A stretch of DNA of 64,000 bases, from the NCBI RefSeq assembly GCF_001753245.1, contig NZ_CP017415.1:3404040-3468039 (forward strand), written 5' to 3'. Below, piece by piece: positions 39,508 through 55,843 of the stretch (its first letter is position 1; each line of letters begins with the position of its first letter). The DNA comes from Acidihalobacter yilgarnensis (GTDB lineage Bacteria; Pseudomonadota; Gammaproteobacteria; DSM-5130; Acidihalobacteraceae). The notes beneath the pieces are model-generated. The model had not been told where the DNA came from, ran no database searches, and saw only the letters and a list, made by a program, of their open reading frames with translations. Position numbers and translations under genes: made by a program.

Positions 39508-40407
39508 ATGAAAACCCTGAAAGCCAATGGTATCGAGCTCGCCTATGACAGCCAGGGCGATGCAAGCGACGATGTAATCCTTCTAATATCGGGATTCGGA
39601 ACGCAGATGATCCGATGGACGGATACCTTCTGCCAGACATTGGTGGCACGAGGATATCGCGTGATTCGGTTCGACAACCGCGACACCGGATACTCGACGC
39701 ATTTCGTCCGACATGCCGCACCGAACTTCGATTCCCTGGCAGCCATGCTCATGGCTGGGCAGCGACCAGACGTGCCATACACCCTCCACGACATGGCCCA
39801 TGACGCTATCGGCCTGCTCAATGCTTTGTCCATCAAGCGGGCGCATGTCGTCGGACGGTCAATGGGCGGCATGATCGCGCAAATCCTGGCGAGCGATCAC
39901 GCCAAGCGGGTTCTCTCGCTGACTTCCATCATGTCCTGCACAGGCAATCCGGCGCTCCCGCAAACGTCGCCGGACATCATGGCCATGATGACACGCCCCG
40001 CTATCGACCCATTTTCGGATGAAGCCGGATTTTTGGCCCACAGCCTCGCCTTTGCGCGCCGTATCGCCGGCAGCGGTCATCCATTCGACGAAGAGTCTCA
40101 TCGCACCCTCATTCTGCAAGAAGTTCGGCGCGCCTATGATCCCGATGGTGTCGGACGACAGCTTGCCGCAATCGCCGTGACGGGCGACCGCCGCGCTCGG
40201 CTGGCGACGATCAAGGCACCGACGCTCGTTGTCCATGGAGCAGAGGACCCACTCCTCTTACCTGCCTGTGGCGAGGACACGGCATCATCGATACCGAATG
40301 CCGAATTCCTGCTAATCGACGGCATGGGGCATGAATTGCCGGCCCCACTATATCGAACCTTCGTGGATGCGATTGACCGGACCGCACGGCGAGCACTGCA
40401 CGCTTGA
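39508..40407 (+). CDS. Alpha/beta-fold hydrolase
   Basis: 299 residues from the ATG at 39508, where homology-like sequence begins (MKTLKANGIELAYDSQGD); an ATG at 39412 would read through the tandem repeat. Motifs: oxyanion-loop ILLISGFGTQ, the nucleophile elbow GRSMGGM with Ser, an acid in GAEDPLLLPACGED and the His in DGMGHELP. It is similar to aclacinomycin methylesterase-like or generic esterases. The substrate is unknown. Confidence 0.92.
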   Translation: MKTLKANGIELAYDSQGDASDDVILLISGFGTQMIRWTDTFCQTLVARGYRVIRFDNRDTGYSTHFVRHAAPNFDSLAAMLMAGQRPDVPYTLHDMAHDAIGLLNALSIKRAHVVGRSMGGMIAQILASDHAKRVLSLTSIMSCTGNPALPQTSPDIMAMMTRPAIDPFSDEAGFLAHSLAFARRIAGSGHPFDEESHRTLILQEVRRAYDPDGVGRQLAAIAVTGDRRARLATIKAPTLVVHGAEDPLLLPACGEDTASSIPNAEFLLIDGMGHELPAPLYRTFVDAIDRTARRALHA

Positions 40408-41202
40408 AGGCTCCGTTGGATGCCTGGAATACCCGAGCCCATCCGCCAGAACACCGGCACGGCCTGAGAGAACACATATCGGGGTCAGGTGTAGCTTTAT
40501 TACATCCGTCACCACTCGCTATTGATGACGGCTATAGCGCGCGTAATACATCGGATTTTTCGTGACCCTGATAATGTGTGCTGACTCAATGCAACGAAGC
40601 GAGACCTGTCCACATTTCACTCGCTTCTGACCAGGGCCGCAGCCATCCAACCGCATCCCCGCTAGGCGGGTCGATAAAGGAATAGAAAAAAACACAAGCG
40701 AAGCGCGTCACAAACGCGCAGCGGAAACACTTTTGACTAGGGTTCCCGTTTACGCCTTGCCTCGCCCGTCCGCGCCGACGTGGGGTCGGGTGGCAGGACG
40801 CCGCCCCGAGCAGGTTTCGCCCGGACGGCGAATGCCTGCTGTGCCCCTCGGCGACCTATGCGGGCGAAGTCCGCCCGCAGGGACAAGGCGTTTCGGGCCG
40901 CGTTTCTTTCACCTATTTCTTTACGCGAATAAAGAAAAAATCGCCGGGAGCGATTTTTGGCGCAATCCCCGCAGGGGTGAGGCGCAGGGATGCGTCGAAC
41001 AGACCGACTCGGGCGCGTTGCTGAATCAGATCAAAGTCAAGGAAGCTGATTCGCGCCCGAACCCTGCACTGCCATTCAGTGAATGGTGGCTGAGGTAATG
41101 GGTTATACCGATGGAAAGCAGATCACGCATGCATGATTCTTGGCATTCGTGTCGCATCGAACCAGTGCTACAAAGCAAGACCACTTTCACTCGTATCTCT
41201 CG
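40408..41202. other. Intergenic region with repeat-like, non-genic open frame
   Basis: About 800 bp. A plus-strand frame at 40733-41098 contains FHLFLYANKEKIAGSDFWRN, a type of sequence I associate with dispersed repeats and their hairpins rather than a protein, and it lacks a ribosome-binding site. The hairpin at 40936-40958 lies inside it. I do not call a gene. Confidence 0.5.
40936..40958 (+). terminator. Symmetrical hairpin, possible bidirectional terminator
   Basis: AAAAATCGC / GCGATTTTT stem with a CGGGA loop: A-rich on one side, T-rich on the other, so it could terminate from either strand. Confidence 0.55.
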
Positions 41203-41766
41203 TCAGATCAAGCTTCGATATTCCTTGAGCCTATCTGCGGTCACAACTAATCCTTGAGCGGAGAGGGTGTCCAGATGGTCATCTACTGACTTAGGCGGGT
41301 TCTTCAAAGACGCTCGCTGCTGCTTCACTGCTTCTATGACAGCGCCTTCATGTAGATCCATCTGTTCGACGATAAACTGATCCGGGTGCACTGCCTCAAT
41401 CCCATAAGGCTCGAGCTTGTCGGCCGGGAAGTCCCTTAGGTTGCAGGTTACGATCAGCTGCGCTCCCGCACGTATGGCCGCAGCAAGAACATGGCGATCG
41501 TCGGGATCTGGAAGGTCCAGACCGTCTACAAGGCTTTCGTATCCAGTAACCAAGCAATCCTCTACAGCATCATCCATCAACTCACGTATTCTAAACATCT
41601 GCTTTTTTAGTTCTGGGCGCCGGGCGACAAGGTTTCGAATCCATTCATCATGGATCTGATCTGTCCACTTTGCGGCGAATAGACCAGTTACAGCCAGCCT
41701 AATGAGCAAGTCCCGTAAAGGTGCGGGGTACAAGACACAAGCGTCATAGACGACGATAAACCGCAT
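41203..41766 (-). CDS. PIN-domain toxin
   Basis: 187 residues. PIN nuclease layout: the first acidic residue in FIVVYDACVLYPAPLRDLLIR, a central EDCLVTGYESLVDGLDLPD, and DDRHVLAAAIRAGAQLIVT followed by NLRDFP, where the conserved Asp and Asn align with the metal site. The family cleaves RNA (often tRNA or mRNA) when released from its antitoxin. It begins four bases after the antitoxin stop, so the two genes form one operon. Confidence 0.88.
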   Translation of the reverse strand: MRFIVVYDACVLYPAPLRDLLIRLAVTGLFAAKWTDQIHDEWIRNLVARRPELKKQMFRIRELMDDAVEDCLVTGYESLVDGLDLPDPDDRHVLAAAIRAGAQLIVTCNLRDFPADKLEPYGIEAVHPDQFIVEQMDLHEGAVIEAVKQQRASLKNPPKSVDDHLDTLSAQGLVVTADRLKEYRSLI

Positions 41767-41770
41767 AGTG

Positions 41771-42226
41771 TCAGTACCCCATGTTTAATTCCTGAGCCTG
41801 CTTCGCCAACTCATCCATAGCGTTCTGGCTGCGCAGATCTCGCTCCTCTTTATACTTGAGCAGTTCTTCGAAGCGGATGCGTCGATGACTACCTGCTTTC
41901 GTGAATGGGAGCTTTCCTTCCTCAAGCAGTTTTATCAGATGCGGTCGTGACACATTCAGTAGGTCCGCAGCTTGTTGTGTGGTCAGCTCTTGGTGGGTTG
42001 GTATAACAGCGACAGCATTACCCTGGGCCATCTCGGCAAGCAAATCTCGCAAAAGGGTTATCGCCTGGCGCGGTAAGACTAGGTCTGTGTCGTCAAATTG
42101 TATGCGCGCACGCGCAATCTCTGGCCGATTGGCCAGAAGCTTACTCAGCTCAGCGGCGCTTTCACGCGCAAGATCGGCCTGCTCGCGATCAGGAAGCGCG
42201 GATTCAAGCTTCTGTGCAACGGTCAT
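41771..42226 (-). CDS. Excisionase-type HTH antitoxin
   Basis: 151 residues. A helical N-terminal half (DREQADLARESAAELSKLL, RQAITLLRDLLAEMAQG) is followed by a MerR/excisionase-like winged HTH (LTTQQAADLLNVSRPHLIKL, then LEEGKLPFTKAGSHRRIRFE) and a charged tail. This fusion commonly accompanies PIN toxins as the DNA-binding antitoxin. It is first in the operon, as expected for autoregulating type II modules. Confidence 0.87.
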   Translation of the reverse strand: MTVAQKLESALPDREQADLARESAAELSKLLANRPEIARARIQFDDTDLVLPRQAITLLRDLLAEMAQGNAVAVIPTHQELTTQQAADLLNVSRPHLIKLLEEGKLPFTKAGSHRRIRFEELLKYKEERDLRSQNAMDELAKQAQELNMGY

Positions 42227-42441
42227 GGCTATTCCTCTCCCAGCAACTGCGTTTTATATTCTTGCTCTTTTCGGTGAAACTAATCGAAACAAACGAAACA
42301 TGCAATGATTTTTTCGTTATGCGGGTTTTACGGTGAAACAAGATTTTTGGTGAAATCATCGGCTCGAAGTATCCAGTTTCCCGGGGGAAATAGCGCGACT
42401 AACCCACTCGTCTGAGCAACACACATACCACACCCACATCA

Positions 42442-42930
42442 TCACTCTCCCTTCCCCCTCCGCATCATCAACAACGCCCCCATATCCTCACTAAACCCCC
42501 ACCGGCGATAAAACGGAATCATCTCGGGCCGGCAGAACAAGTCGATGTAATCCACCTCGCGCAGGCGCGGGTGATTGACAGCGCGATCCAGCAGCACTTC
42601 GCCGAGGCCGCTGCCCCGGCGGTCGGTGCGCACGATGACGTCGTTGAGCATGGCCTTGTAGACAAAATCGGTGATCACACGGGCAAAGGCGATCAAGGTG
42701 TCGTCCGACTCGTCGACCAGCGCAATCACAAGGTCGGTATGTGCGAGCATGCGTTCGACGTCTTCGCGCCGGCGCTCGGCGCACCAAAATTCGCCTTGAT
42801 AAAGCGCCATGAGCTGATCGATCTGCGCCGTGTTCAGGCACTCGACTTCGCGCACGCCTGTCGCCTCGGCTTGCGTTGCCGATATTGAATCAGCCGCACG
42901 CTGCATAGAATCATCCGTTTCCGTCGTCAC
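42442..42930 (-). CDS. GNAT-family N-acetyltransferase
   Basis: 162 residues. GNAT strand pattern: LIAFARVITDFVYKAMLNDVIV, the acetyl-CoA loop RRGSGLGEVLLDRAV and the terminal IPFYRRWGFSED. This resembles YjhQ/YhbS-type single-domain acetyltransferases. The substrate is unknown. It lies 24 bases downstream of the PaiB-like gene on the same strand. Confidence 0.9.
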   Translation of the reverse strand: MTTETDDSMQRAADSISATQAEATGVREVECLNTAQIDQLMALYQGEFWCAERRREDVERMLAHTDLVIALVDESDDTLIAFARVITDFVYKAMLNDVIVRTDRRGSGLGEVLLDRAVNHPRLREVDYIDLFCRPEMIPFYRRWGFSEDMGALLMMRRGKGE

Positions 42931-42954
42931 TTCTCTGCGCCCTCGTATCGTTAT

Positions 42955-43569
42955 CTACAAGTCTGTTGCCATCAACTGCGCCGTGACCACATCCGCCGCG
43001 CGCGTGGAGGCGGCGAGCTTCGCCATCGCACCCTCTCGGTCCTCGCGCGAGCGGTTCTGGCCGAGCTTGAACTTGGCCTCGATTCGCTCAATATGGATCT
43101 CGAATCCGACGATGTGATCGAGCAGCCGGCCATGCGGGCTGTCGGGGCCACCCCAGACCCAATCCGCCCCGACATCTGCCTCAAAGCGTGCCGTTAACCG
43201 CCCAACCAACGCGCTCAGGACCTCGCGATCGGCCACGCGCCGCACGCGACCGTGCACATGCACCGCCGCGTAGTTCCAGGTGGGCACGCCGGGCGTGACA
43301 TACCAGGACGGAGAGATGTACGCATCCGGTCCCTGGAACACGGCCACCACCGCATCGCCGTCGGCCAAGGCATCCGCCTGCTGATTGGCCCGCGCGAGGT
43401 GGCCGATCAGCCGACCCTGCGGCCCGCCATCGGGCTCGTGCAGCAGAGGCACATGGGTCAGCAGCGGGCCGCCGTCGCCGCCCCCAATCAGCAGCGCCAG
43501 CGGATAGGCGCGCAGTAGCGCCTCAATACGCGCCGCGTCACCTTCCTCAAATGCCGGAGGTATGTACAT
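42955..43569 (-). CDS. PaiB-like FMN-binding negative transcriptional regulator
   Basis: 204 residues. The PaiB family (Bacillus protease regulator) is recognised by MYIPPAFEE at the start, LLTHVPLLHEPD, GRLIGHLARANQQA, VVAVFQGPDAYISPSWYVT and the PTWNYAAVHVHGRVR motif. It binds FMN and was described as a transcriptional repressor, but may be a flavin oxidoreductase. The ATG at 43569 follows GGAG about six bases upstream; upstream in-frame sequence runs into leuA and is not typical. It is the gene after leuA, with a gap of 61 bases. Confidence 0.92.
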   Translation of the reverse strand: MYIPPAFEEGDAARIEALLRAYPLALLIGGGDGGPLLTHVPLLHEPDGGPQGRLIGHLARANQQADALADGDAVVAVFQGPDAYISPSWYVTPGVPTWNYAAVHVHGRVRRVADREVLSALVGRLTARFEADVGADWVWGGPDSPHGRLLDHIVGFEIHIERIEAKFKLGQNRSREDREGAMAKLAASTRAADVVTAQLMATDL

Positions 43570-43630
43570 TGCCTGCTCCCATCCCACGGCGCCGGGCCGA
43601 TCCCGGTGCCTTCCTGATTCCAATCCATGC

Positions 43631-45337
43631 TCAGCCCGACAGGGCGCGCGCCGCCGCATCCGGCGAGGTGTCCACCACAGCCTGCGCGCGGTTGACTGCG
43701 GCCGTCACCGCCCCCAACGAGGCACTGAGCACGTCGTCGTGCAGACCGACGCCGAACATCGAGCCTGCACCGTCTGCCGCAGCGATCTCCACATAAGCCA
43801 CCGCACGGGCGTCGGCGCCCGGTCCAGCGGCATGTTCTCGGTAATCGACCAGGCGGATCGATATGCCAATCGCCTGTTCCAGCACCCGCACATAGGCGTC
43901 GATGGAGCCGTTGCCCGATGCGCCGAGCAAGCACTCGCGGCCATTCACCGACAGCGTCGCGGACAGCTTCACCGCACCCTGCGCGTCGCGCTGCTCGCGG
44001 TACGAAAGCAACTTAACCGCGCCCTCAGACGCGAGGTATTCAGCCTGGAACAATCGCCACAGATCGGCCGAGCCCAGCTCCGCGCCGGTCGCATCCGCCT
44101 CGCGCTGCACCACGCGGGCAAATTCGATCTGCAGCCGGCGCGGCAGGCTGATGCCGTAGTCCTGTTCCAACAGGTAGGCGATGCCACCCTTACCGGACTG
44201 GCTGTTGACGCGGATCACCGCCTCGTAGCTGCGCCCGAGGTCGGCCGGGTCGATGGGCAGATAGGGCACCTCCCAGGGCGCGTCCGCACGCTGCGCCGCG
44301 AAGCCCTTGCGGATGGCGTCCTGGTGCGAGCCGGAGAAGGCGGTGAACACCAGCTCGCCGGCATAGGGATGACGCGGGTGTACCGGGAGCTGGTTGCAGT
44401 ATTCGGCCACGCGCACGATCTCGTTGATGTCGCCCAGGTCGAGGCGCGGGTCGACGCCCTGGGTGTAGAGGTTGAGTGCCAAGGTAACGATGTCGACGTT
44501 GCCGGTGCGCTCGCCGTTGCCGAACAGGGTGCCCTCGACACGATCCGCGCCGGCGAGCATGGCCAGCTCGGCGGCAGCCACGCCGCAGCCGCGGTCGTTG
44601 TGCGGGTGCACGCTGAGCACGATGGCGTCGCGGTCGCGCACGTGGCGGCTGAACCACTCCACTTGGTCGGCGAAGCCGTTGGGCGTAGACACCTCCACGG
44701 TTGCGGGCAGATTCATGATGGTCTTGCGCGCGGGGGTGGGACGCCACACAGCATTCACCGCATCGCAGATCTCCACCGCGAAATCCGGCTCGGTTGCGGT
44801 GAAACTCTCCGGCGAGTATTGGAACACCCACTCGGTTTCAGGCTGCGTTCGGGCGCAGGCCAACACTCGCTCGGCACCGCGCACGGCGATATCGATCACG
44901 CCCGCGCGGTCGAGGCCGAAGACCACCCGGCGCTGCACCGGCGAAGTCGAGTTGTAGAGGTGCATGATGGCCCGACGGGCACCGCGCAGCGCCTCGAAGC
45001 TACGCTCGATCAATGCATCGCGCGCCTGAGTCAACACCTGAATGGTGACATCCTCGGGAATCCGGTCGGTCTCGATCAGCCAGCGTACAAAGTCGAAATC
45101 GGTCTGCGAGGCAGCGGGAAAACCCACCTCGATCTCCTTGAAGCCGCGCTGCACCAGCAGCGCGAACATCCGCGCCTTACGGTCGTGATTCATCGGCTTG
45201 ACAAGAGCCTGATTACCATCGCGCAAGTCGACGCTACACCAGACAGGTGCCTCGCGGCAGACACGCGACGGCCATTGCCGATCGGGCAATTCGATGGGTT
45301 CGAAGGGTCGGTACTTGGCCTTGGGGTCAAAATTCAT
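43631..45337 (-). CDS. leuA: 2-isopropylmalate synthase
   Basis: 568 residues, the long LeuA form of Pseudomonas and related Gammaproteobacteria. It condenses acetyl-CoA with 2-oxoisovalerate, the first step of leucine synthesis. Catalytic landmarks: [10 protein letters not shown] near residue 40, [14 protein letters not shown], the metal ligands in [14 protein letters not shown], and [14 protein letters not shown]. The C-terminal region carries the leucine-binding regulatory dimer fold (SVDEYA-like tail). The upstream region has a promoter, leader peptides and a hairpin, implying leucine-responsive attenuation in addition to feedback inhibition. Confidence 0.96.
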
Positions 45338-45421
45338 TGCGGATACCTCGACTGAGAGTGGTCTGGGGGTGACGCTCAGTTGGGGCCGATGGCCATGTGC
45401 AAACGCACCAGGCCGCCGACC

Positions 45422-45556
45422 CTATCTCAGTCGCAGTAGGGCTAGGGTGCGTAGGGAAGCGGACGCGCAGGCACGCAAGCCGTGCATACGGCAAGAGGCG
45501 CCGCACGAGATCGTGGCGGCAAGAACAAGGCGGGAATGATGGGACTTCGACTTCAT
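45422..45556 (-). CDS. Putative leucine leader peptide upstream of leuA (44 aa)
   Basis: The frame starts at an ATG in CGCCCCATGAAG and ends in TAG 84 bases before leuA. Its last eleven sense codons include CTA three times and CTG twice (peptide ending SLRTLALLRLR), and it also has two CTT and a TTG. CTA is expected to be rare in a GC-rich genome and is the codon used in known leuL leaders. This is what an attenuation leader should look like, though its ribosome-binding site is weak and I do not see a T-run terminator immediately after it. Leucine control is inference. Confidence 0.5.
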   Translation of the reverse strand: MKSKSHHSRLVLAATISCGASCRMHGLRACASASLRTLALLRLR

Positions 45557-45581
45557 GGGGCGTATCCGGTGATCGACGGGC

Positions 45582-45620
45582 GAAAAGATAGCGGGCCGAC
45601 GCTCCCCTCGGGAGGCCGGC
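45582..45620 (-). terminator. Hairpin with U-rich tail in the leuA leader (possible attenuator)
   Basis: The minus-strand sequence directly after the 14-residue mini-ORF folds as GCCGGC CTCCC / GGGAG ... CGGC (45595-45620), followed after six bases by TCTTTTC. The stem is interrupted by an internal loop, so it is weaker than the terminators after fbp and rpmA. Confidence 0.4.
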
Positions 45621-45664
45621 TAGCGCAGTCGTAGCGCGTCGAACTGGCGGATACGGATAGACAT
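45620..45664 (-). CDS. Near-leaderless mini-ORF in the leuA leader (14 aa)
   Basis: ATG at 45664 lies eight bases from the -10 box, so the transcript would start within a few bases of it. It encodes MSIRIRQFDALRLR and stops at the base of the hairpin at 45595-45620. Its CTA CGA CTG CGC TAG end echoes that of the second leader (CTG CGA CTG AGA TAG). Leaderless translation is inferred from the promoter position. Confidence 0.45.
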   Translation of the reverse strand: MSIRIRQFDALRLR

Positions 45665-45672
45665 GGTGCAAA

Positions 45673-45701
45673 GTTATAACGCCGAACGACGCCGAAGGCA
45701 A
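45673..45701 (-). promoter_or_regulatory. Sigma70-like promoter of leuA leader
   Basis: On the minus strand TTGCCT (45696-45701), a 17-base spacer, and TATAAC (45673-45678). Confidence 0.7.
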
Positions 45702-46362
45702 CCATCGCGCCTCATTTCAACACCTCGACACATCCCTTGCCGAGGATTCCGACCCGAACGACCTGGCGCCTACACTCACAGGCATGAGGCCCATTCTAGC
45801 GTTCGATGTTTCGCTCTTCGCCAACACAAAATATGCACATGGCAACACTGGTGCCATCAAAAAGAGTTGGATTGGATGATGGGTACAAGCCTTTATCGAC
45901 AAGCCGATTGCGATACTGAACGCCTCGCCGTAAGCCACCACTTACGCTCAGGCCGCCTTACGCGAAACAATATCCACCATGTCGGCCCGCACCATCGAAG
46001 CTGCCTGCATTACCTTACCGCTGCTGGGTTCCGGTCACGACGAAAACAACATCATCCAACACCCGAAAACCTCCCCGGCCAGACGTGAAACGCTTCAGGC
46101 ACTGGCGCAGTCGATTCAAGCAGGCGATAAATCATAAATTCAGTATCGATACTTATCGAATACACGAGCCGTAACGTGACGCGAAAAACATAATGAAAAT
46201 AAAAAGTTTTTTGGGTTACCCAATCATACGGCGCAGCATCACGTATTTGCTGAATTCAGGGCTTCGATTGCCATCTTTCGATTTTCTCTAGGGCAGGACT
46301 CGACCCACTGCGGCCAGTCAGGTATCGGTGACACCCCGTCTGTTCCAGCCCCGACAGCAGCC
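45702..46362. other. Intergenic region between leuA promoter and cassette tract
   Basis: About 660 bases. No gene has support; open frames on the plus strand lack ribosome-binding sites. No integron integrase or attI site was recognised here. Confidence 0.45.
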
Positions 46363-46461
46363 GTTCTACGCCCGCGTTCAGGTCCGTTTAACTCGATGAT
46401 CGCTTTTGTGGCAGCAAAAGTGATCAGCGAGGAAAACGTTACCTGCAACGTGTTGTTGGGT
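46363..46461 (-). repeat. attC-like recombination site (cassette end, AIPR cassette)
   Basis: On the minus strand an ACCCAAC box (R'') is followed by a long imperfect palindrome. The arm with CGTTGCAGGTAACG and CCTCG pairs with one containing CGAG, AAACG and ACCTGAACG, leaving a few unpaired bases; a CTTTTG/CAAAAG tip closes it. The R' box is degenerate (GTAGAAC instead of GTTRRRY). It begins 55 bases beyond the AIPR stop codon, the normal place for an attC. Degeneracy of R' lowers confidence. Confidence 0.5.
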
Positions 46462-46515
46462 GGCAACACGTCATTCACGGCAACCGCCCTGTTGTTCCTG
46501 GTAATTACGTATTTA

Positions 46516-48201
46516 TTACTTTGCAACAGACAAACTAGAACAAAGATCGGCGATCGCATCAGCCTTTTTCCGCAATACATCCTTTTTATACTGCGCCACC
46601 AATTTCGCTGAAATCTTCCTGCACCAAGTTGGGCTTTTTAGTTCATTTTTGTAGTCAAATTCTTTGTCGTCGACAATTTCCGCATTCAGATCGAGCGCGA
46701 GAGAGCGTGCAAGTTGATCAATAATATTTGTGAAGTCCGTTATCTTATCAGCAGACAAAATACCCTTCATATTATTCAACATTATGACACCTTCAGATTC
46801 GGTTCGAATCAGACTCACAACCCCATATACCAAAAAGTATTTCGTAAGATTGTAGTAGGCAAACTGCTTGTCATCGATCGCATCAAGAGCCTTCTCCACC
46901 GCTTGGAAAGCTCGCCAGTACCCAACAACTTTAGCACCGGTAACATCAGGCCGGCCAAAGATATCTGAGTGAAGGTCATCCATTATTTTATATTTCTGGT
47001 GGCAGCTCCACGGCTGGGCAAGGTCCATCGCAAGAAGAATCAAGCCAGCCGACTCATTGTTTATCACTTCTTTACCGCCATGAGTCTCACCCTGCTTAAT
47101 TTCATAAGCAATAGTGTCTTTGCTTACAGTGCTCACCTCAGCCTTAAGCCGTTGCTGGATGTTGTGATTAGATTTTAAATCACGCGCTTTGATCGCATTT
47201 TGATTGTTGCTATTGGTGGTAATTCGCTGCGAAAGGGCTGCGTCCCCTTTTGTCTCTATCAGCTTCACTAAAATTTTGAGGTCATCCGTAATCTTCGGCT
47301 TTTCAGCCATCAGAGAAGTTAAGCTCTGCGCACCATTGACCACGACGTAGTCCTCGATGTCTATCCGCTGTTCCGTTTCAGAAACGATTTCCCTGCACAG
47401 CACGTTGATTCCATTATGATATAGCGGAAAGTTCTTGTGCTCTTCTTTGTTTTTAATGCTCTTTCGCAGTCCTTTGTTTACTTTGGTGTTCCCCAAAGCC
47501 AATCTAACGTTCTGCTCAAAAAGACTGCCATCTGAAATCCCGCTCATCTTGAGCAAATTGAGCGCTGGCGCCAGGAACAATCGAGCAGCTGCACCACCGG
47601 CATCGTATTCAATTACATCAGAATCAGAAATATCAAAGTAGAATTTCCCTTTAATACCACCATCGACATCTAAATCAACGTAATTATTGGCTATCGCTTC
47701 TGCGTCAAAAAGTTCAATCTTCTGCAATTTCCCAAGAATCGCTTTCGCATCGTCGTTTGCACTTGCGTTGCTGATAAATATGCCGAGCACTTCGTAACCA
47801 CTATCAACCTTTGTCGCAAGGCTTGTTCGTGTGATTGTCTGCTTCAGTTTTTCGTTTGTAGTTTCGGAATAGAGATCTTCTATTTTTTGTTTACTATCAA
47901 ACTGTTGCAAAGTGCCGTAAAACTCTTTCAGATCGGTGTCACCGAATTCAGCGTTGTCCTTGGTCTTGGTTTTTGACTGAACGATATAAACAGTTTCAGC
48001 GACATCATCAACATAAATTGCGTCAACGCCCTTGTCATGCTTAGCATCCACGCAAGCATCGTCGGCATCTATTGCTTCTAGCCGATATATGTTCTCCAAG
48101 AACCATCTGATGAATCGGCCAGAGAAATCCGGTGCCCGCTTTTCGTAGGGTTTTAGTTCATTCGTGGAGAAAGCGTTATGGTTGAGAGCGTTCGCTTTCA
48201 T
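46516..48201 (-). CDS. AIPR-family abortive-infection protein with N-terminal nuclease-like motif
   Basis: 561 residues. The AIPR domain (PF10592) occupies about 200-500: FPLYHNGINVLCREI, VNGAQSLTSLM, and RITTNSNNQNAIKARDLKSN are its signatures. The N-terminal 100 residues contain GVDAIYVDD (D60) and, after a strand, VYIVQSK (Q75, K77), the D...QxK pattern of PD-(D/E)XK/Mrr-type nucleases. AIPR proteins protect against phage, originally found on lactococcal plasmids. GAGGA lies just before the ATG. The gene is more AT-rich than flanking housekeeping genes and lies between attC-like sites, so it appears to be an integron cassette gene. Confidence 0.9.
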   Translation of the reverse strand: MKANALNHNAFSTNELKPYEKRAPDFSGRFIRWFLENIYRLEAIDADDACVDAKHDKGVDAIYVDDVAETVYIVQSKTKTKDNAEFGDTDLKEFYGTLQQFDSKQKIEDLYSETTNEKLKQTITRTSLATKVDSGYEVLGIFISNASANDDAKAILGKLQKIELFDAEAIANNYVDLDVDGGIKGKFYFDISDSDVIEYDAGGAAARLFLAPALNLLKMSGISDGSLFEQNVRLALGNTKVNKGLRKSIKNKEEHKNFPLYHNGINVLCREIVSETEQRIDIEDYVVVNGAQSLTSLMAEKPKITDDLKILVKLIETKGDAALSQRITTNSNNQNAIKARDLKSNHNIQQRLKAEVSTVSKDTIAYEIKQGETHGGKEVINNESAGLILLAMDLAQPWSCHQKYKIMDDLHSDIFGRPDVTGAKVVGYWRAFQAVEKALDAIDDKQFAYYNLTKYFLVYGVVSLIRTESEGVIMLNNMKGILSADKITDFTNIIDQLARSLALDLNAEIVDDKEFDYKNELKSPTWCRKISAKLVAQYKKDVLRKKADAIADLCSSLSVAK

Positions 48202-48312
48202 ATGTCCTCGCCAGTCGTGTTAGTAATTAGGTCATAGTATGACCGTAAAACACCCTATGCACTGCGAATACATGGATCAATGCGCATGGGAGCCTCACTG
48301 TGTCAACTTGCC

Positions 48313-48370
48313 GCCCAACTTTTAAGCTCAGCCGCGCGCGAAGCGCGTCTGTTGGGGCGCCTTGTTGGGC
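48313..48370 (-). repeat. attC (59-base element-like) site
   Basis: On the minus strand GCCCAAC (R'') begins the site, GTTGGGC (R') ends it, and the 44 bases between form a hairpin whose tip is ACGCGC-TTC-GCGCGC flanked by CAG/CTG; the 3' arm GGCTGAGCTT is the usual L' form of environmental cassettes. The site starts ten bases after the stop of the gene at 48380-48796 and precedes the AIPR gene by 112 bases. Confidence 0.75.
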
Positions 48371-48379
48371 GACTTTCGC

Positions 48380-48796
48380 TCAAAATGAAATATTGCTGAG
48401 CGTACCATAATCAATCTCCGCCGCCTGACATGCCAGCCGCAGGATGTGCGGCACGTCTCTCCACGGAATGTTGGTTAAGACGTGGTAGCCTGCTACCGCC
48501 TCGGACTGTGCCTGTAGATGAGGACTTTCAATATATAGGAGATCTGGTGTCTCGGCGATGTATCGTCGGGTGCGACGTTTGTTGGACTGCCAGTTCTTAT
48601 CATCAAGACTCGAAGCCTTTTCCATTGAGCCGGGCACCGCCTCCTCAATTCTCTCGAGGCTCGTTTTTAGAGCATCACGAATATCCCAAGGCCGGATGGA
48701 CTCGAAGATATCCCAACGCCCATCCTTGTACCGGAACACGATGCGCCGATCCTTCCATACAGTGCAATGGATGGCCTTAAGCTGCCGGTGTGCCAC
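48380..48796 (-). CDS. Hypothetical cassette-encoded protein
   Basis: 138 residues starting at a GTG (48796) six bases after AAGGAG; another GTG at 48802 abuts the site and is less likely. No recognised domain. The composition is mixed charged: RRIVFRYKDGRWDIFES, a lysine/arginine patch (NKRRTRRY), then YHVLTNIPWRDVPHILRLA. The short stop-to-attC distance and orientation match integron cassette genes. Function unknown. Confidence 0.7.
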   Translation of the reverse strand: MAHRQLKAIHCTVWKDRRIVFRYKDGRWDIFESIRPWDIRDALKTSLERIEEAVPGSMEKASSLDDKNWQSNKRRTRRYIAETPDLLYIESPHLQAQSEAVAGYHVLTNIPWRDVPHILRLACQAAEIDYGTLSNISF

Positions 48797-48857
48797 GTTC
48801 ACCTCCTTGATGCCAAAATTGCAGAAGCAATGTTTCCAAGCTGCAGCCTCCTAAGCA

Positions 48858-48929
48858 GCCAAACGCCTGCCGTAACCGGCGGATTTGTAGTGAGCTCAGC
48901 GAACGAAAAATGCGTCCGTTTTTAGGTCA
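48858..48929 (-). repeat. Degenerate attC-like site (half site)
   Basis: Read on the minus strand it ends GGTTACGGCAGGCGTTTGGC, like the L'-R' half of an attC, and the preceding CCTAAAAACGGACGCATT pairs imperfectly with it. The R'' box expected on the other side (GCCAAAC-like) is missing. It would be the left boundary of the cassette holding the 138-residue gene. Confidence 0.35.
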
Positions 48930-49050
48930 AGAGAGCAACATGCACAGTAATCACTTTCAATAAACTGACATGTAAGCGTTTAGGAGATCGCAAGCCCCCC
49001 CTAAACGATGCGCACGCATTCCCAATACTTTCTCTGGACTTTAGCCTCTT

Positions 49051-49455
49051 TTATTCCCACGGCCATCGATGCCGATATGACTTAACAAATCCAGAAAATT
49101 CGTCTCTAAAATAACCACTCGGGATCACATTGCGATTTAAATCTGGGTATGCATTAGTCAATATCTTTTGGTTTTTGAGAGTGAATTTAGCTTCCCCTGG
49201 TTCGTCATATTCATAGCCGAAGGATGACATGCATGACACAACCATATCTCTATGCTGACTGTGCCATTCACTAACAGCATTATCAGTTATAGGCTTGTCA
49301 TTGTAAGGACGCCGAGAGGCCATTGCCTTGTCTGCTTCAAATTCGCAGTAACCCAATGTTTTTGCAGTTGTCGGTACTATGTTTGCCATATCTGCGAGAA
49401 CGAAAATTATGACTGCACCAAGGACAAAGATAATGATTTTCTTCAATAATGACAT
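49051..49455 (-). CDS. Hypothetical single-pass membrane/exported protein
   Basis: 134 residues. An N-terminal hydrophobic segment (IIIFVLGAVIIFVLADMA, about 5-23) acts as signal anchor; two cysteines in the exported part (CEFEADKAM and VVSCMSSFGYEY) could form a disulfide. I choose the ATG at 49455 over 49473 because sequence character begins there, although no strong ribosome-binding site is seen. It is AT-rich and has no family I recognise, and may be a third cassette gene. Confidence 0.6.
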   Translation of the reverse strand: MSLLKKIIIFVLGAVIIFVLADMANIVPTTAKTLGYCEFEADKAMASRRPYNDKPITDNAVSEWHSQHRDMVVSCMSSFGYEYDEPGEAKFTLKNQKILTNAYPDLNRNVIPSGYFRDEFSGFVKSYRHRWPWE

Positions 49456-49739
49456 TGTGCTTGCTCTGATCATTGAATTTGAGACCCCATAATAAATAAA
49501 CCAAAACGAGAGAGAATGAATCTCGGGGTCTAGACTTGCCTTTTGCTCCAGTCAGGATACTCGACAGGCGGCCAGGACAATTCCCCACTTTCCTGCTGGA
49601 ACCGGCCGTTCAAACAACGACCCAGGACGGCGGTGACCGGCCGCAGTTGGCCGAAAGCAGCATAAAACCCCAGCATTATAAACCAGACATTCAAACCCAC
49701 CATACTGCTGCACACATCATCTCATGGGCTGGATCGGCA

Positions 49740-50027
49740 TTACATTTCCCAGCCACCGTGCGGCATACGTTGCAGGTGTATGTGGTGCGCCAGACGAATC
49801 ATCGGCCGCGTGAGGAATTGCGCACTACCGAGGATGAACAACCAAGTGCCGATGTGTGTCAGCGAGGGATAGAGGAAGAACACGCTGCCGAGCAGAAACC
49901 AGATTGCGATCAGGAAGTCGTTGAAGATACTGGCGGTTTCGTAGCGGCGGTGGATGACGAGCTGTTCGCGGCCCAGCGTCAAGGTCACGTCGCGGCTGGA
50001 GTTGATATCTTGGGTCGATGCCTTCAT
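49740..50027 (-). CDS. YrhK-family small membrane protein
   Basis: 95 residues. The YrhK domain is recognised from LVIHRRYETASIFNDFLIAI, then FLLGSVFFLYPSL and WLFILGSAQFLTRPMIRLAH with two transmembrane helices; the ending is HHIHLQRM. GGAGAG precedes the ATG. The function of the family is unknown. Confidence 0.85.
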   Translation of the reverse strand: MKASTQDINSSRDVTLTLGREQLVIHRRYETASIFNDFLIAIWFLLGSVFFLYPSLTHIGTWLFILGSAQFLTRPMIRLAHHIHLQRMPHGGWEM

Positions 50028-50124
50028 GAACTCTCCGATGTTTGTGCGAACCGGGCGCGGTCCGCAGCGGGTGTTGATATGACGTTTGACTACCCTTGGG
50101 CTCCATTGCGGCGCAGGGGTTCCC

Positions 50125-51561
50125 TTAGTCGCCCTCGGCCAGCTGGTGCGCGAGGTCGCCGAGCACGACTACGGCTTGCTCGACGGGCCGCCCCCAGGGC
50201 AGTGCGGCGTTGAGGCGGATGAATGGGCGGTATTTGCCGGTGGCCGAGAACATCGGGCCGGGCGCGATACTGATCTGACGCGCTTGGGCACGTTCATAAA
50301 GCACGAGGCTGTCGACAGCCTGCGGCAACTCGACCCAGAGGACGCAACCGCCCTGCGGACGCGTCAACCGCGTACCGGGTGGAAAGGATTCGGCCACCGC
50401 GTCGCTCAGGCGTGCGACATGCGCGGCATATTCCCCTCGCACGCGCCGCAGGTGGCGGTCGTAGCCCCCTTGGGCGAGCAGTTCGGCGACGACCCACTGG
50501 GGCAATGTGGCGGTCGCGAGGTTGCTGACGTATTTGTAATAGCTCACCGGCTCGCGGTAGCGGCCGGGCACGATCCAGCCCACGCGCAGCCCTGGCGACA
50601 GGGTCTTGGAAAACGACGAGCAGTACAGCACGCGGCCGTCGCGATCACCCGCAAGCACGGCGGGCGGGCGTTCGTGACCGAAACCCAGATCGCCCCAGAT
50701 GTCGTCTTCGATCAGCGGCACGTCGTGCCCCGCCAGCAGTGCGAGCAGGGCGTGCTTACGCGCCAGCGGCATGCAGTAGCCGAGCGGATTGCTGTAGTTG
50801 GGCACCAGCACGCAGGCCTTCACCGGCCAGCGTTCCAGCACCACTTGCAGCGCCTCCAGTGAGATGCCGTGATCCGGGTGCGTCGGGATCTCCAGCGCCT
50901 TGAGTCCGAGCGACTCGATCACCTGCAACAAGCCGTAGAAGGTCGGCGATTCGATGGCAATCACGTCGCCCGGCACGGCCACGGCGCGCAGCGCCAGGGT
51001 CAAGGCCTCCTGACAGCCGCTGGTGATGATCACCTCGTCGGGGTCGACCGTGCAGCCGGCATCGGCCATACGCCGTGCAATCTGCACGCGCAGCTCCATG
51101 ACACCGGGCGGAAATGCATAGGCCGTGGCGCGCTCGGCGTAGCGCGAGACGACGCGGCGCAGGGCGGCGCGTTCGGCCTGCACCGGCAGGAAGCCCTCGG
51201 CGGGCACTGCGGCACCGAAGGACACGACCCCTGGCTGGTGCGTGGCTTGCACCAGACGCAACGCCATCGCCTGCCCGCTCACCAGGGTTGGACGCGTACT
51301 CGGGCGCGAGGGTTCGGGTGCCGCCGGCAACGGCGCGCGGGCGCGCACGAAGTAACCCGCACGCGGACGCGCCTCGATGCGACCCTGATCCTCCAGCAAG
51401 TGCTGCGCCTGGATCACGGTGCCCACGCTCACACCGAATTGCCGGCTCAGCTTGCGCACGCCGGGCAGCCGCTCGCCCGGCACATATTGCATCTGCTCGA
51501 TGCGCTCGGTGATGCGCGCGGCAATCTGCCGATAGAGTAGCGTGTCGCCGACGGCACTCAC
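50125..51561 (-). CDS. MocR-type regulator (GntR HTH fused to aminotransferase)
   Basis: 478 residues. An N-terminal winged HTH of the GntR family (about 1-75; GERLPGVRKLSRQFGVSVGT, then VIQAQHLLEDQGRIEARPRAG) is fused to a fold-type I aminotransferase domain (about 110-475; ITSGCQEALTLAL, YSNPLGYCMP, and the Schiff-base Lys in CSSFSKTLSPGLRVGW). MocR proteins sense PLP or aminated metabolites. The gene is divergent from the PhzF-aminotransferase-permease operon, and inverted repeats lie between them, so it probably regulates that operon. Confidence 0.93.
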   Translation of the reverse strand: MSAVGDTLLYRQIAARITERIEQMQYVPGERLPGVRKLSRQFGVSVGTVIQAQHLLEDQGRIEARPRAGYFVRARAPLPAAPEPSRPSTRPTLVSGQAMALRLVQATHQPGVVSFGAAVPAEGFLPVQAERAALRRVVSRYAERATAYAFPPGVMELRVQIARRMADAGCTVDPDEVIITSGCQEALTLALRAVAVPGDVIAIESPTFYGLLQVIESLGLKALEIPTHPDHGISLEALQVVLERWPVKACVLVPNYSNPLGYCMPLARKHALLALLAGHDVPLIEDDIWGDLGFGHERPPAVLAGDRDGRVLYCSSFSKTLSPGLRVGWIVPGRYREPVSYYKYVSNLATATLPQWVVAELLAQGGYDRHLRRVRGEYAAHVARLSDAVAESFPPGTRLTRPQGGCVLWVELPQAVDSLVLYERAQARQISIAPGPMFSATGKYRPFIRLNAALPWGRPVEQAVVVLGDLAHQLAEGD

Positions 51562-51575
51562 GCGTATTTGCCTGT

Positions 51576-51662
51576 GGTACAGATGCCCCGTGGCAGGACC
51601 AACACAGCGCTATCAGCGCTATAACTGTACTGGCTCATAATCGTAATCTCTGCATCTGTACC
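51576..51662. promoter_or_regulatory. MocR/PhzF divergent control region with inverted repeats
   Basis: A perfect 10-bp inverted repeat GGTACAGATG (51576-51585) / CATCTGTACC (51653-51662) spans 87 bases between the divergent genes. Inside are a direct repeat of AGCGCTAT (about 51606 and 51615) and a related ACTGTACTGG; further ACAGTTGTAC lies at 51680-51689. These are candidate regulator sites. Binding is inference. Confidence 0.5.
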
Positions 51663-51721
51663 AGCCTCAGTATGGCCGCTACAGTTGTACGACACAAACC
51701 ACGCGCCAGGACACCGCCGAC

Positions 51722-52519
51722 ATGTACCGCGAAATCCGCCTGTTCCAGATCGATTCCTTTGCAGCCAGGCCCTTCGAGGGCAATCCCGCCGCCGTGTGCC
51801 TGCTCGACGGGTCTGCCGATGCGGCTTGGATGCAGCAGGTTGCCGCCGAGATGAACCTCTCGGAAACCGCCTTCGTCAGCCCCGCGGCCGACGGCTTCGA
51901 GCTGCGCTGGTTCACGCCCACGGTGGAAGTCGACCTGTGCGGCCACGCCACCCTGGCGAGCGCGCATGTCCTGTTTGAAACGGGCACGGTGACCGCGGAC
52001 GCAAGCGTGCGCTTCCATACCCGCAGCGGTCTGCTGACCGTGGCCCGCAGCGGCGACGGCTACGAGATGGATTTCCCCGCCGATCCGCCCGCGCCCTGCG
52101 CTGCGCCGGACGGCCTGGCGCGGGTGCTGGGCGCGGAACCCGTCTCCGTCTTGCGCGGACGCGAGGATCTCGTGATCCGTCTCGCCGACGCCGCAACCGT
52201 GCGCGGCCTGACCCCGGACATGGCCGCGCTAGGACGGCTTGATGCACGCGGGGTCATCGTCACCGCCGCAGCCGACGAAGCCGGCTGCGACTTCATTTCG
52301 CGCTTCTTCGGCCCACAGGTCGGCATCGACGAAGACCCGGTCACCGGCTCGGCGCACTGCACGCTCGCCCCCTACTGGGCCGCCGAACTCGACCGCGACC
52401 GGCTTCGCGCCTATCAAGCTTCGGCGCGCGGAGGGTGGCTCTCGCTTACAGTGACCGGCGCGCGCGTGCAGATCGGCGGACAGGCGGTGACCGTGTTCTC
52501 GGGGGTGTTACATGCCTGA
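51722..52519 (+). CDS. PhzF-family isomerase-like protein
   Basis: 265 residues with the diaminopimelate-epimerase fold of the PhzF family: FQIDSFAARPFEGNPAAVCL at the start, MNLSETAFV with the catalytic Glu, DLCGHATLASAHVLF, and the C-terminal DPVTGSAHCTLAPYW. PhzF isomerises trans-2,3-dihydro-3-hydroxyanthranilate; most homologues have unknown substrates. It overlaps the next gene by eight bases. Confidence 0.93.
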   Translation: MYREIRLFQIDSFAARPFEGNPAAVCLLDGSADAAWMQQVAAEMNLSETAFVSPAADGFELRWFTPTVEVDLCGHATLASAHVLFETGTVTADASVRFHTRSGLLTVARSGDGYEMDFPADPPAPCAAPDGLARVLGAEPVSVLRGREDLVIRLADAATVRGLTPDMAALGRLDARGVIVTAAADEAGCDFISRFFGPQVGIDEDPVTGSAHCTLAPYWAAELDRDRLRAYQASARGGWLSLTVTGARVQIGGQAVTVFSGVLHA

Positions 52520-53408
52520 GCAAAACATCGCACGCTGCTGGTTCAACGGCCGCCTGGTCAATCCCGCTGAGCCGCAGATCTCGGTCTACGATCATGGTCT
52601 GCTCTATGGCGACGGCGTATTCGAGGGTATCCGCTTCTACCATCGCCGGGCCTTTCGCCTGCAAGCGCACCTCGAACGCCTGCAGCACTCGGCGCGCGCC
52701 ATCGCCCTTGCGATGCCCTATGCGACCGATGCACTCGCGGCGGCGGTCGACGAGGTGATCGCGGCCAGCCCGCTGGACGACGGCTATCTGCGGCTGGTGG
52801 TCACGCGCGGCGCGGGCTCCCTCGGCATCGACCCGCGCAGCTGTGCCCAAGGCAACGCCTTCATCGTCGCCGACCGCATCGGCTTCACCTCTGCGGCACA
52901 GCGGCAGGCAGGTTTGAGCGTGATCGTGGCCGCTATCCGCCGCTTACCCACCGACGGGCTGGACCCCCGCGTCAAGAGCCTGAACTACCTCAATCATGTG
53001 CTCGCGCGCATGGAGGCCACTCGCGCCGGTGCCGACGAAGCGCTGCTGCTCAACGCCCAGGGCCGCATCACCGAAGGCAGCGGCGACAACGTCTTCGTGG
53101 TTCGCCGTGGCGAGCTGCTCACCCCACCCGGCATCGACGGCGCACTGGAGGGCATCACCCGAGGGGTCGTACTCGAACTGGCTGCATCGCTCGGCCTGCC
53201 GGCGCGCGAAGCCTCGCTCGCGCCCTACGAGCTTTACACCGCCGACGAGTGCTTCCTCACCGGCACGGCCGCCGAGCTGTTGCCGGTGCGCGAGATCGAC
53301 GGGCGCGCGCTGGATATCTGTCCGGGCCCCGTGACGCAAGCCATCGAATCGGCCTTCAGCGCCCTTATCGCGCGTGAATGTGGCGAGCCGGCGGAAACTG
53401 CAGCGTGA
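52512..53408 (+). CDS. Class IV aminotransferase (branched-chain aminotransferase-like)
   Basis: 298 residues, fold-type IV PLP enzyme. Motifs: CWFNGRLVNPAEPQISVYDH, then LLYGDGVFEGIRFY, the PLP Lys in RVKSLNYLNHVLARMEA, EALLLNAQGRITEGSGDNVF and the glycine-rich ECFLTGTAAELLPV. It is closest by eye to IlvE (branched-chain) but D-amino-acid or 4-amino-4-deoxychorismate lyase-like activities are possible. It is central in an operon, overlapping genes on both sides. Confidence 0.88.
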   Translation: MPEQNIARCWFNGRLVNPAEPQISVYDHGLLYGDGVFEGIRFYHRRAFRLQAHLERLQHSARAIALAMPYATDALAAAVDEVIAASPLDDGYLRLVVTRGAGSLGIDPRSCAQGNAFIVADRIGFTSAAQRQAGLSVIVAAIRRLPTDGLDPRVKSLNYLNHVLARMEATRAGADEALLLNAQGRITEGSGDNVFVVRRGELLTPPGIDGALEGITRGVVLELAASLGLPAREASLAPYELYTADECFLTGTAAELLPVREIDGRALDICPGPVTQAIESAFSALIARECGEPAETAA

Positions 53409-54859
53409 CGCTGGACCTGCTGCCCTTCGCCGGCATTCTGGCGGCGCTCGCCAGCCGTCGCGTCAGCGTATGGCAGGCCGCCCTCGCCGGGCTGATCCTC
53501 AGTCTGCCCGCCTTCTGGTTCGCCGCACCGGACGCGCAGACGGCGATGGCGCGTATGGCCGGTGCCGCAATGCATGGCCTCTGGCTAAGCTGGCTGGCCC
53601 TGTCGGTGATCCTCTCCGGCCTGCTGTTCCACCAGGTAGTCAGCCGCGCGCGCGCAGGGCCTGCACCGACGCCCGAGGCCGCCTCCCCCGAGCGACGTTA
53701 CCGCGTATTGTTCGCCCTGTGCTTCCTGGTCGGCCCCTTCTTCGAGTCGGTCACCGGCTTCGGCGTGGGGCTGGTGGTGACGCTGCCGCTATTGCTGCGC
53801 CTGGGCATCACGCCCGTCGGTGCCATTGTTCTCGGGCTGTACAGCCAAATGCTGGTGCCCTGGGGCGGCATGGCCGTCGGCACCACCGTGGGTGCCGCGC
53901 TGGCCGAATTGCCGCTGCATACGCTAGGCCTCGCCAGCGCCCTGCTGACGGTCCCGCTGCTCGGCGGCTATCTGTGGCTGTTCTGGCGCCTCGCGGCCGC
54001 CGAGGGGCTGCATCCCAATGCCAATCAGCGCCTGGACGATTTGTTGTGGATTGCTGCGCTGGGCGGGCTGCTGGTGCTGTGCAACGATGCCGTCGCGGTG
54101 CCCATCGCCGGCCTGCTGGCGACCGGCCTGCTGCTGGTACCGCGGCACTGGCGCGACCAGCGGCCGAATCTGACGCAATGGCGTGCCGCCGCGCATTCCG
54201 CCCGTCCTTATCTGCTCGTGACGGGCCTACTGCTCGTCACCCATACCCTGCCACCGCTACGACACACACTTAAACATCTGTGGGTCTGGCAGCCGGCGCC
54301 TGGCTGGCCCGCGTTCCCGCCGTTCTACGAGGTCTCGTTCTGGCTAGCCGTCACCGCGCTCGGCTACGGCCTCGCCACCCGCCTGGACGCCGTACACTGG
54401 CGGGCGCTCGTTGCGGACGCCGGACGCATGGCCTGGCCTCCGGCACGTACGACCGTACTCTTCGTGGTCATGGCTCAGCTGATGAGCGACGGCGGCATTG
54501 CCGGGCGTCTGGCAGCCGGCTGGCATGCCGCGGCAGGCAACGCTGCGCTGTATGCCGCCCCGCTGTTGGGCGGTCTGGCGGGGCTGTTGACGGCCAGCAA
54601 TACCGCCGCCAATGCCTTGCTGATGCCCCTGCAGACGGCACTGGCCGGCGGCGACCCGCGCCTGCTGACCTGGCTGGCCGCCGTGCAGAATCTCGCCGGC
54701 AGCAACCTCACCGCGCTTTCTCCGATCCGCATCGAGATGGCCGTTGCGCTGGCGGGTTTGGCCGGTGGCACGGCGCACGTCTATTCCCGCGCCTGGCCGC
54801 TCGGCGCACTGGCATTGCTACTGCTCACCGCAATGCTTGCCGTGCTCGTGCTGGGCTAG
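53405..54859 (+). CDS. L-lactate-permease-family (LctP-like) transporter
   Basis: 484 residues from the GTG at 53405, which overlaps the preceding stop (GTGA); an ATG at 53378 would lie far inside the upstream gene. About 12-14 hydrophobic segments; VGPFFESVTGFGVGLVVTLP and GLAGLLTASNTAANALLMPLQ, then QNLAGSNLTALSP, are typical of the lactate permease family. Context with an aminotransferase suggests a keto- or hydroxy-acid substrate, unproven. Confidence 0.85.
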   Translation: MTLDLLPFAGILAALASRRVSVWQAALAGLILSLPAFWFAAPDAQTAMARMAGAAMHGLWLSWLALSVILSGLLFHQVVSRARAGPAPTPEAASPERRYRVLFALCFLVGPFFESVTGFGVGLVVTLPLLLRLGITPVGAIVLGLYSQMLVPWGGMAVGTTVGAALAELPLHTLGLASALLTVPLLGGYLWLFWRLAAAEGLHPNANQRLDDLLWIAALGGLLVLCNDAVAVPIAGLLATGLLLVPRHWRDQRPNLTQWRAAAHSARPYLLVTGLLLVTHTLPPLRHTLKHLWVWQPAPGWPAFPPFYEVSFWLAVTALGYGLATRLDAVHWRALVADAGRMAWPPARTTVLFVVMAQLMSDGGIAGRLAAGWHAAAGNAALYAAPLLGGLAGLLTASNTAANALLMPLQTALAGGDPRLLTWLAAVQNLAGSNLTALSPIRIEMAVALAGLAGGTAHVYSRAWPLGALALLLLTAMLAVLVLG

Positions 54860-54867
54860 CGCGCCGC

Positions 54868-55254
54868 TCAGCCTGCGTCGTCGGGCTGAGCGTAATCTTC
54901 GTATTCGTTGTACTTGCGCGCCTGACCACGCACCCGCTCGACCGGGTATTTGACGCGGTTGATCTCGATCTTGCTTCGCGCCGCGGCATATAGATCGACA
55001 CCCAGCCGGTCGGCGAGGCGAATCAGATATAGCAGGACATCGGCCATCTCATGCTCGATGTCCTGACGGCGCTTGGCATCCGGCGCGGCGCTCTCCTCCG
55101 GTGTCAGCCACTGGAAGCATTCGAGCAGTTCGGCGGCCTCGACCGACAGCGCCATGGCCAGATTCTTGGGCGTGTGGAAAGTTTCCCAGTCGCGTTCGCG
55201 GGCGAAAACCTCCAGCGCGGCGCGCAGCGTTTCCAGGGCATCGGTATCGGGCAT
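54868..55254 (-). CDS. MazG-like nucleotide pyrophosphohydrolase
   Basis: 128 residues, all-alpha NTP-PPase of the dCTPase/RS21-C6 type. The signature ExxE...ExxD is visible in SVEAAELLECFQW and IEHEMADVLLYLIRLADRLG, with a helical tail. It probably hydrolyses non-canonical or excess dNTPs. It converges with the permease gene and is nine bases from it. Confidence 0.9.
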   Translation of the reverse strand: MPDTDALETLRAALEVFARERDWETFHTPKNLAMALSVEAAELLECFQWLTPEESAAPDAKRRQDIEHEMADVLLYLIRLADRLGVDLYAAARSKIEINRVKYPVERVRGQARKYNEYEDYAQPDDAG

Positions 55255-55315
55255 GCCAACCTCGTAGATATCGGAACACTGCGAGGTATTCTACGCCCCA
55301 CCTTCGGCGGCAGGC

Positions 55316-55843
55316 TCAGCGTGCGAGCAATTTGAAGTCGATGACCGCAAATCCGTCCACCGCCGCATGTACGATCAACAGCACGCCGGCCACATAGAGC
55401 AACACAAAGCCCATTCCGGCAATCAACCCGCGCGCGTTGTACGGCGGCGACGACTTGCCCGCAACACGTCGAATATCCTGCGAGTCGAACCAGCGCAGGC
55501 CCAGATAGCTCAGCAACACCCACAACACCGGCAAGCCGATGGCGAGCAGTTCGATGGGCATCGCACCCTGATAGGGCTCAAGCAAGCGATCCTCGAATGC
55601 GGTCAGACCGAAGGCAGAGGTCATCCCGTGCTGAATCACGTACCAGGGAAATTCCGCCGCCACGTACACGCCGGCCAGTGCCTGCGGCCAGGCCGCAGGC
55701 GCGGTCACTGGCCAGCGCAACATCAAGTGCAGGGACAGTGTCGCCAGCACATCGACCATCAGCGCCCCGAACAACATCGCAGCGCACAGACGCAATAGAG
55801 GACGCAGGCGCGACACGCAAGCGCTGACGCGTAGCGTCGTCAT
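55316..55843 (-). CDS. Integral membrane protein, partner of cytochrome b561-like gene
   Basis: 175 residues with four hydrophobic helices (FGALMVDVLATLSLHLML, LLAIGLPVLWVLLSYLG, LIAGMGFVLLYVAGVLLIV) and a long loop carrying EFPWYVIQHGMTSAFGLTAF. The ATG at 55843 overlaps the stop of the upstream cytochrome gene (ATGA), so it is translated with it. I recognise no family; an anchor or electron-transfer partner role is inferred only from position. Confidence 0.75.
   Translation of the reverse strand: MTTLRVSACVSRLRPLLRLCAAMLFGALMVDVLATLSLHLMLRWPVTAPAAWPQALAGVYVAAEFPWYVIQHGMTSAFGLTAFEDRLLEPYQGAMPIELLAIGLPVLWVLLSYLGLRWFDSQDIRRVAGKSSPPYNARGLIAGMGFVLLYVAGVLLIVHAAVDGFAVIDFKLLAR

Follow-up and report, generated by a model that had tools for sequence, protein, structure and literature searches.

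How does a gene for an AIPR/AbiU-family protein come to lie in a small insertion between leuA and a yrhK-like gene in the chromosome of Acidihalobacter yilgarnensis, and was it carried as an integron cassette? The window analysed here is a stretch of 64,000 nucleotides (C1:3404040-3468039) of this one-contig, 3.567-Mb genome. In the preliminary description, the tract around the AIPR gene was read as a remnant cassette array (CALIN-like) whose integrase is elsewhere or lost, and the AIPR gene as having travelled as a cassette. The features of the tract, in window positions, are listed below; R1 and R2 are two attC covariance models described in the next section.

45709..49734, no strand: insertion of about 4.0 kb between leuA and a yrhK-like gene, with boundaries good to about 10 bases
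48858..48864, minus strand: GTTTGGC, a speculative 5' boundary of the 140-residue cassette, with 6/7 pairing with R'' of attC1 by eye; a match of this kind occurs fairly frequently by chance in a stretch of such length
48380..48802, minus strand: gene of the 140-residue cassette, sharing 73% identity with the cassette that comes first behind intI in genome G1071
48313..48370, minus strand: attC1, attC of the 140-residue cassette (R1 39.7 bits, E=3.6e-8; R2 48.3 bits, E=1.1e-8)
48230..48244, no strand: perfect palindrome of 15 bases, GGTCATAGTATGACC, seen in the sequence between attC1 and the AIPR start
46516..48201, minus strand: AIPR/AbiU-family gene of 561 residues (Pfam AIPR 2.7e-30 and Mrr_cat 5.2e-6, both above cut-offs; PADLOC AbiU 7.6e-29)
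46363..46461, minus strand: attC2, candidate attC of the AIPR cassette, with a long central stem (R1 13.5 bits, E=0.33; R2 16.1 bits, E=0.21, called at 46364-46461)

The insertion and its attC sites

Two genomes of the same genus, G001 and G002, align with the window in BLAST up to position 45703 and resume at 49741, and in each of them leuA and the yrhK-like gene adjoin, with 31 bases separating the matched stretches. The site is empty in both (2/2), with the AIPR gene, the 140-residue gene and both attC sites absent, and no attC match at E<=5 was found with R1 in the 19.9 kb fetched around it. The GC content of the insertion is 0.47, compared to 0.60 for the window. A further open reading frame of 140 residues, without a family in Pfam, PADLOC or NCBIfam, is present inside the insertion (49051-49473). 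Elsewhere in the window, at 41203-42226, a PIN-domain gene lies behind an HTH_17 gene, and by their look these form a toxin-antitoxin-type pair. Rfam at gathering thresholds gave only one tRNA in the window, and a promoter scan of 48150-48980 found none.

An attC covariance search had been proposed as a check on the preliminary description and was carried out with two models. R1 was built from 17 attC sites adjoining integron integrases in 11 other genomes, chosen by length from the output of our own scanner (<=75 bases, with a single flanking base at either end); a further site of fitting length, L080:9004-9069, was excluded as unlike the others. R2 was built from 80 sites matching R1 at E<=0.003, which include this genome's other islands and none from the window or the AIPR loci. 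The site described as a good attC was called clearly and at exactly 48313-48370 by both models, and its R1 match has E=2e-6 genome-wide. Its fold does not stand out (z=-1.2 for one strand and -1.8 for the other), and its R' doubles as the 5' boundary of the AIPR cassette. The attC-like palindrome on the other side of the AIPR gene, attC2, is the second-best match in the window under both models, but it is weak: a chance-like R2 match within another gene reaches 15.9 bits, near the 16.1 bits of attC2. It is also missing from the genome-wide lists at E<=1 of both models (150 first-look candidates scored with each), and by the covariance models alone it would not count.

Nevertheless, attC2 finds support in its similarity to two other attC sites, its hairpin, and its position and orientation after the AIPR stop codon. 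Its alignment, along the full site, with the strong attC L023:11024-11122 scores 42, compared to 26 for the best of 2000 shuffles, and that with the intI-adjacent attC L083:2605-2703 scores 37; in a shuffle control against all 80 attC sites, the best of 200 was 31. Its bottom strand forms a strong hairpin (z=-6.5), and 0/200 shuffles were equally stable. The site begins 54 bases past the AIPR stop in matching orientation. Its R' core has diverged to GTAGAAC from GTTRRRY and pairs with R'' at 3/7 positions in place. In an excised AIPR circle with R' of attC1 as the 5' end, this pairing would be 6/7, which is modest evidence, as it mostly follows from the attC consensus. The identification of this palindrome as an attC is supported by similarity, hairpin and place, and is weakened by model E-values of 0.21-0.33 and by the damaged R' core.

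Other details of the preliminary description were corrected. Both genes do share one orientation, while the gaps between stop codon and attC are 9 and 54 bases rather than 10 and 55, and the neighbouring gene encodes 140 residues from a GTG start rather than 138. The degenerate third site that was said to bound the neighbour's cassette was not called by R1 or R2 at E<=10, has a fold of z=-1.5, and was abandoned. With attC1 clear, and attC2 weak by R1 and R2 but backed by similarity, fold and position, we lean towards counting two attC sites, as the designation CALIN demands.

The two genes and their relatives

The AIPR domain (residues 228-385) scores 106.5 bits in Pfam, above the curated cut-off of 25, and the protein belongs to the family. 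In the Mrr-like region (residues 52-104), D60 and Q75-x-K77 are invariant in 13/13 aligned sequences, comprising that of the window and 12 relatives; we take these residues to be the catalytic ones of Mrr-type nucleases. Compared with the Chlorobaculum copy, the gene has a dN of 0.105 and a dS of 2.67, and the protein is therefore constrained. The predicted structure is mediocre, with a mean pLDDT of 65 and poor values over most of residues 167-343, and its comparison with the PDB gave no match at E<=0.001; no conclusion here draws on it. A PDB sequence search with the protein returned one match, which was weak and was set aside as unconvincing. The palindrome GGTCATAGTATGACC upstream of the gene might, speculatively, be an operator.

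Searches of Pfam, PADLOC and NCBIfam at E<=0.001 assigned the neighbouring 140-residue gene to no family, and no relative was found on plasmids. In 369 genomes of the class, its sole relative besides itself at E<=1e-6 is found in G1071, where it stands first after intI (67% identical) and has an attC of 46.8 bits directly downstream, with more attC sites further on. A weak match (15.0 bits, E=0.098) is present between that intI and the gene, at the place expected for attI. In G1071, then, the neighbour gene is carried as a cassette of an intact integron.

One scan of species genomes gave 15 AIPR loci related to that of the window, with identities of 63-82%. An attC-like site directly follows the AIPR gene in two of these. 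In Chlorobaculum thiosulfatiphilum (82% identical), the site lies 68 bases past the stop (L022:7761-7832; R2 23.3 bits, E=0.0064; R1 13.6 bits, E=0.41), and its fold is no more stable than those of shuffled sequences (z=+0.35). In Halioglobus japonicus BC5_1 (80% identical), it lies 65 bases past the stop (L023:7758-7837; R2 17.4 bits, E=0.14; R1 11.7 bits, E=1.4), with a fold of z=-3.1. These scores are modest, and weak with R1: both sites are unseen at E<=1 with R1 default filters and are absent from the genome-wide list at E<=0.1. The Halioglobus gene stands in an array in which R2, whose training set included none of the Chlorobaculum or Halioglobus sites given here, finds sites at 5391-5465 (24.8 bits), 11024-11122 (55.1 bits) and 12184-12264 (30.0 bits), plus weaker ones; by eye, the AIPR-adjacent site closely resembles the last of these three. 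The Halioglobus genome has an intI on a different contig from the array, and no intI above the cut-off was found in the Chlorobaculum genome.

The remaining 13 loci have no attC at E<=1, with partial matches at E=5 (L027) and E=3.3 (L030); three of the 13 (L029, L034 and L036) are not judgeable, the gene or its downstream sequence being cut off, and L024 offers 173 bases downstream only. Among 398 genomes of the phylum (E<=1e-120), two further AIPR relatives of 42% identity were found, both without attC, and a search of 390 genomes from the order to which Halioglobus belongs recovered Halioglobus alone. The viral contigs scanned held no relatives, and the 36 plasmid records that did are all below 60% identity. 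In a tree of 13 sequences (L034, L035 and L036 left out), the three attC-borne AIPR sequences group with modest support (78/88), and 9/500 label shuffles were as clustered. At the DNA level, similarity to the copies in Chlorobaculum and Halioglobus stops at the edges of the AIPR gene, so that a shared attC is not demonstrable; at a dS of 2.67, or at saturation, no similarity would be expected to remain in non-coding sequence.

Taken together, we consider it likely that the tract is a two-cassette CALIN, arranged as [140-residue gene-attC1]-[AIPR gene-attC2], in which both genes were once captured as cassettes. The proposal that the AIPR gene is a cassette draws on the attC-like sites beside two relatives, on the neighbour being a cassette in G1071, and on the empty site in both same-genus genomes. 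Our confidence stops there, given the weak R1 scores of the sites next to the two AIPR relatives and the weak fold of one of these sites. The same weak sites, the weakness of attC2 itself with its missing GTT core, and the number of relatives without attC would suit another reading, according to which the AIPR gene is no cassette, but was inserted by another route beside a lone attC-bearing cassette, with an unrelated hairpin downstream. The 13 of 15 relatives that show no attC, three of them not judgeable, would suggest that the gene also moves by other routes. As an account of this tract, however, such a reading is unlikely, since attC2 resembles two independent attC sites along its length beyond what shuffles reach, sits in the right place and orientation, and has counterparts after two relatives, one of them in an array with clear attC sites.

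Integrons elsewhere in the genome and the origin of the tract

The genome holds one intact intI (C1:22520-23458; 472.9 bits, cut-off 265), with three attC sites alongside at 22.5-25.7 kb. If the contig is circular, this integrase is about 136 kb from the tract; the genome-wide search found none close by, in agreement with the earlier expectation of an integrase elsewhere or lost. Past the third attC of this integron (L010:13675-15495), a truncated DUF5343 gene, a repeated stretch and a Y1_Tnp transposase gene are observed. In total, at least 16 (R1) and at least 19 (R2) attC sites were found in the genome at E<=1 among the 150 first-look candidates scored with each model, with R2 matches at its training islands being partly by construction and R1 being free of that. 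These sites are located at 24-25, 406-410, 454-459, 855, 1639, 3263-3265, 3304-3305 and 3452 kb, and one at 3202 kb was found by R2 only (E=0.02). The reading as a remnant array without a local integrase is supported by attC1, the weaker attC2 and the distance to intI. In the related genomes, G001 has an intI of 96.9% identity and its own scattered attC sites, and G002 has attC sites and no intI above the cut-off.

Some islands carry genes that match defence models. The six-attC island at 454-459 kb (L100), which starts with attI-like and intI 5' remnants, carries HEC-07-like and PDC-M34A/B (DUF5343) genes, and past its last attC lies a kinase gene with PD-T4-6-type matches. With its two attC sites, the island at 3304-3305 kb (L102) carries one gene for a TIR-domain protein, one that matches PD-Lambda-4_B in part, and one that encodes a DUF559/MTES_1575 nuclease domain. 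Among 23 island open reading frames, chosen mechanically and not all strictly between attC sites, nine match PADLOC defence models at E<=0.001 (1/3, 7/10 and 1/10 in the three sets), compared to one among 12 other genes of the window (an HTH gene with a mad1 match, 1.1e-7; sets 1/2 and 0/10). One of the matching island genes is truncated, and several matches involve broad families, kinases and TIR domains among them; the defence genes in the islands are suggestive and do not amount to a measured enrichment.

How the pair of cassettes came to its present place can be explained in two ways. The tract may be what is left of a second integron platform that decayed in situ by deletion of intI and attI. 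Such remnants do exist in this genome: the islands at 405 and 454 kb start with attI-like sequence (scores 99 and 110, null maxima 27 and 25) and intI residues 1-31, and an attC at 855 kb (L011, G000:C1:855296-856050) lies beside a C-terminal intI piece that is 62% identical to the intact intI, so that this locus, judged by its sequence, is the remains of another integron. The insertion itself holds no attI-like sequence (scores 14-21; null means 17-18, null maxima 23-29), and window positions 40000-56000 no convincing intI piece. The best candidate there is 27% identical over 52 residues, with an E-value of 0.023 or 8.7e-4 according to the size of the search; it includes a stop and is on the wrong side of the tract. 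We regard this origin as possible, though short of probable.

The resident IntI may instead have placed the cassettes at a non-canonical chromosomal target, as in attG-type insertion. This origin appears doubtful to us, even though the genome combines an intact intI with several dispersed attC islands and precedent exists in experiments on attG insertion cited in PMC12444791. Compared with the empty site, the junctions are not clean, and extra non-cassette DNA is present on both sides of the cassettes. In addition, GTA stands at the end in place of the usual GTT.

A possible course of events and comparison with known systems

In the two-cassette reading, an integron integrase would have captured both genes as cassettes, and the pair would now lie far from the one intact intI of the genome. 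Judging by its close relatives beside attC-like sites in two unrelated bacteria, the AIPR gene was probably transferred between bacteria as an integron cassette, and this cassette may have spread among distant bacteria partly via integron recombination; with the core of attC2 damaged, it may now be close to frozen here. The AIPR protein may act against phages by an abortive-infection type of response, in which the AIPR part would react to infection and the Mrr-like nuclease at the N-terminus would cut nucleic acid, as the analogy with AIPR/AbiU proteins suggests. A broader reading is that members of the genus maintain a scattered reserve of defence cassettes derived from repeated integron platforms, most of them without a working integrase, in which the intact IntI would still excise and shuffle cassettes in trans and the AIPR nuclease cassette would have crossed phyla. 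The islands meant are those with the AIPR nuclease, TIR, HEC-07-like, DUF5343-pair and kinase genes; we put this forward tentatively. One complete sequence here contains an intact integron and decayed ones whose cassettes persist as small islands, some of them of defence type, and this makes the use of orphan cassettes in trans directly testable.

Sedentary chromosomal integrons have recently been reported to store anti-phage genes, a point already raised in the preliminary description, and papers from 2025 are said to describe integrons as such stores. The tract is like them in having defence-type genes as cassettes, and it differs in its host and in its short, scattered islands. A literature search for AIPR or AbiU together with integron gave no reported AIPR integron cassette in the material covered, with subscription papers, including the 2025 integron-defence papers, outside its scope.

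Among AIPR/AbiU proteins, which include MzaE of the MZA system, the protein described here is alike in its AIPR domain above the Pfam cut-off and its PADLOC AbiU match, whereas identity with MzaE was rejected, as it scores 25.2 bits against an NCBIfam cut-off of 1050. In PMC3506569, AIPR/AbiU proteins are linked to abortive infection and restriction-modification, and an N-terminal HEPN domain is given for AIPR proteins; here, in contrast, the N-terminus matches Mrr_cat, and the Pfam scan of the protein showed no HEPN domain.

A further likeness is to CALINs outside the integron locus, for example those of Xanthomonas in PMC12444791, the main text of which does not contain the word AIPR. These are also attC clusters without a nearby integrase, with intI elsewhere in the genome and defence genes among the cassettes, whereas the tract described here has only two sites, one of which is weak. 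This kind of tract is already known; what is new is the AIPR family with an attC, together with two other attC-adjacent copies, by which the AIPR/AbiU family joins the kinds of genes seen with attC sites.
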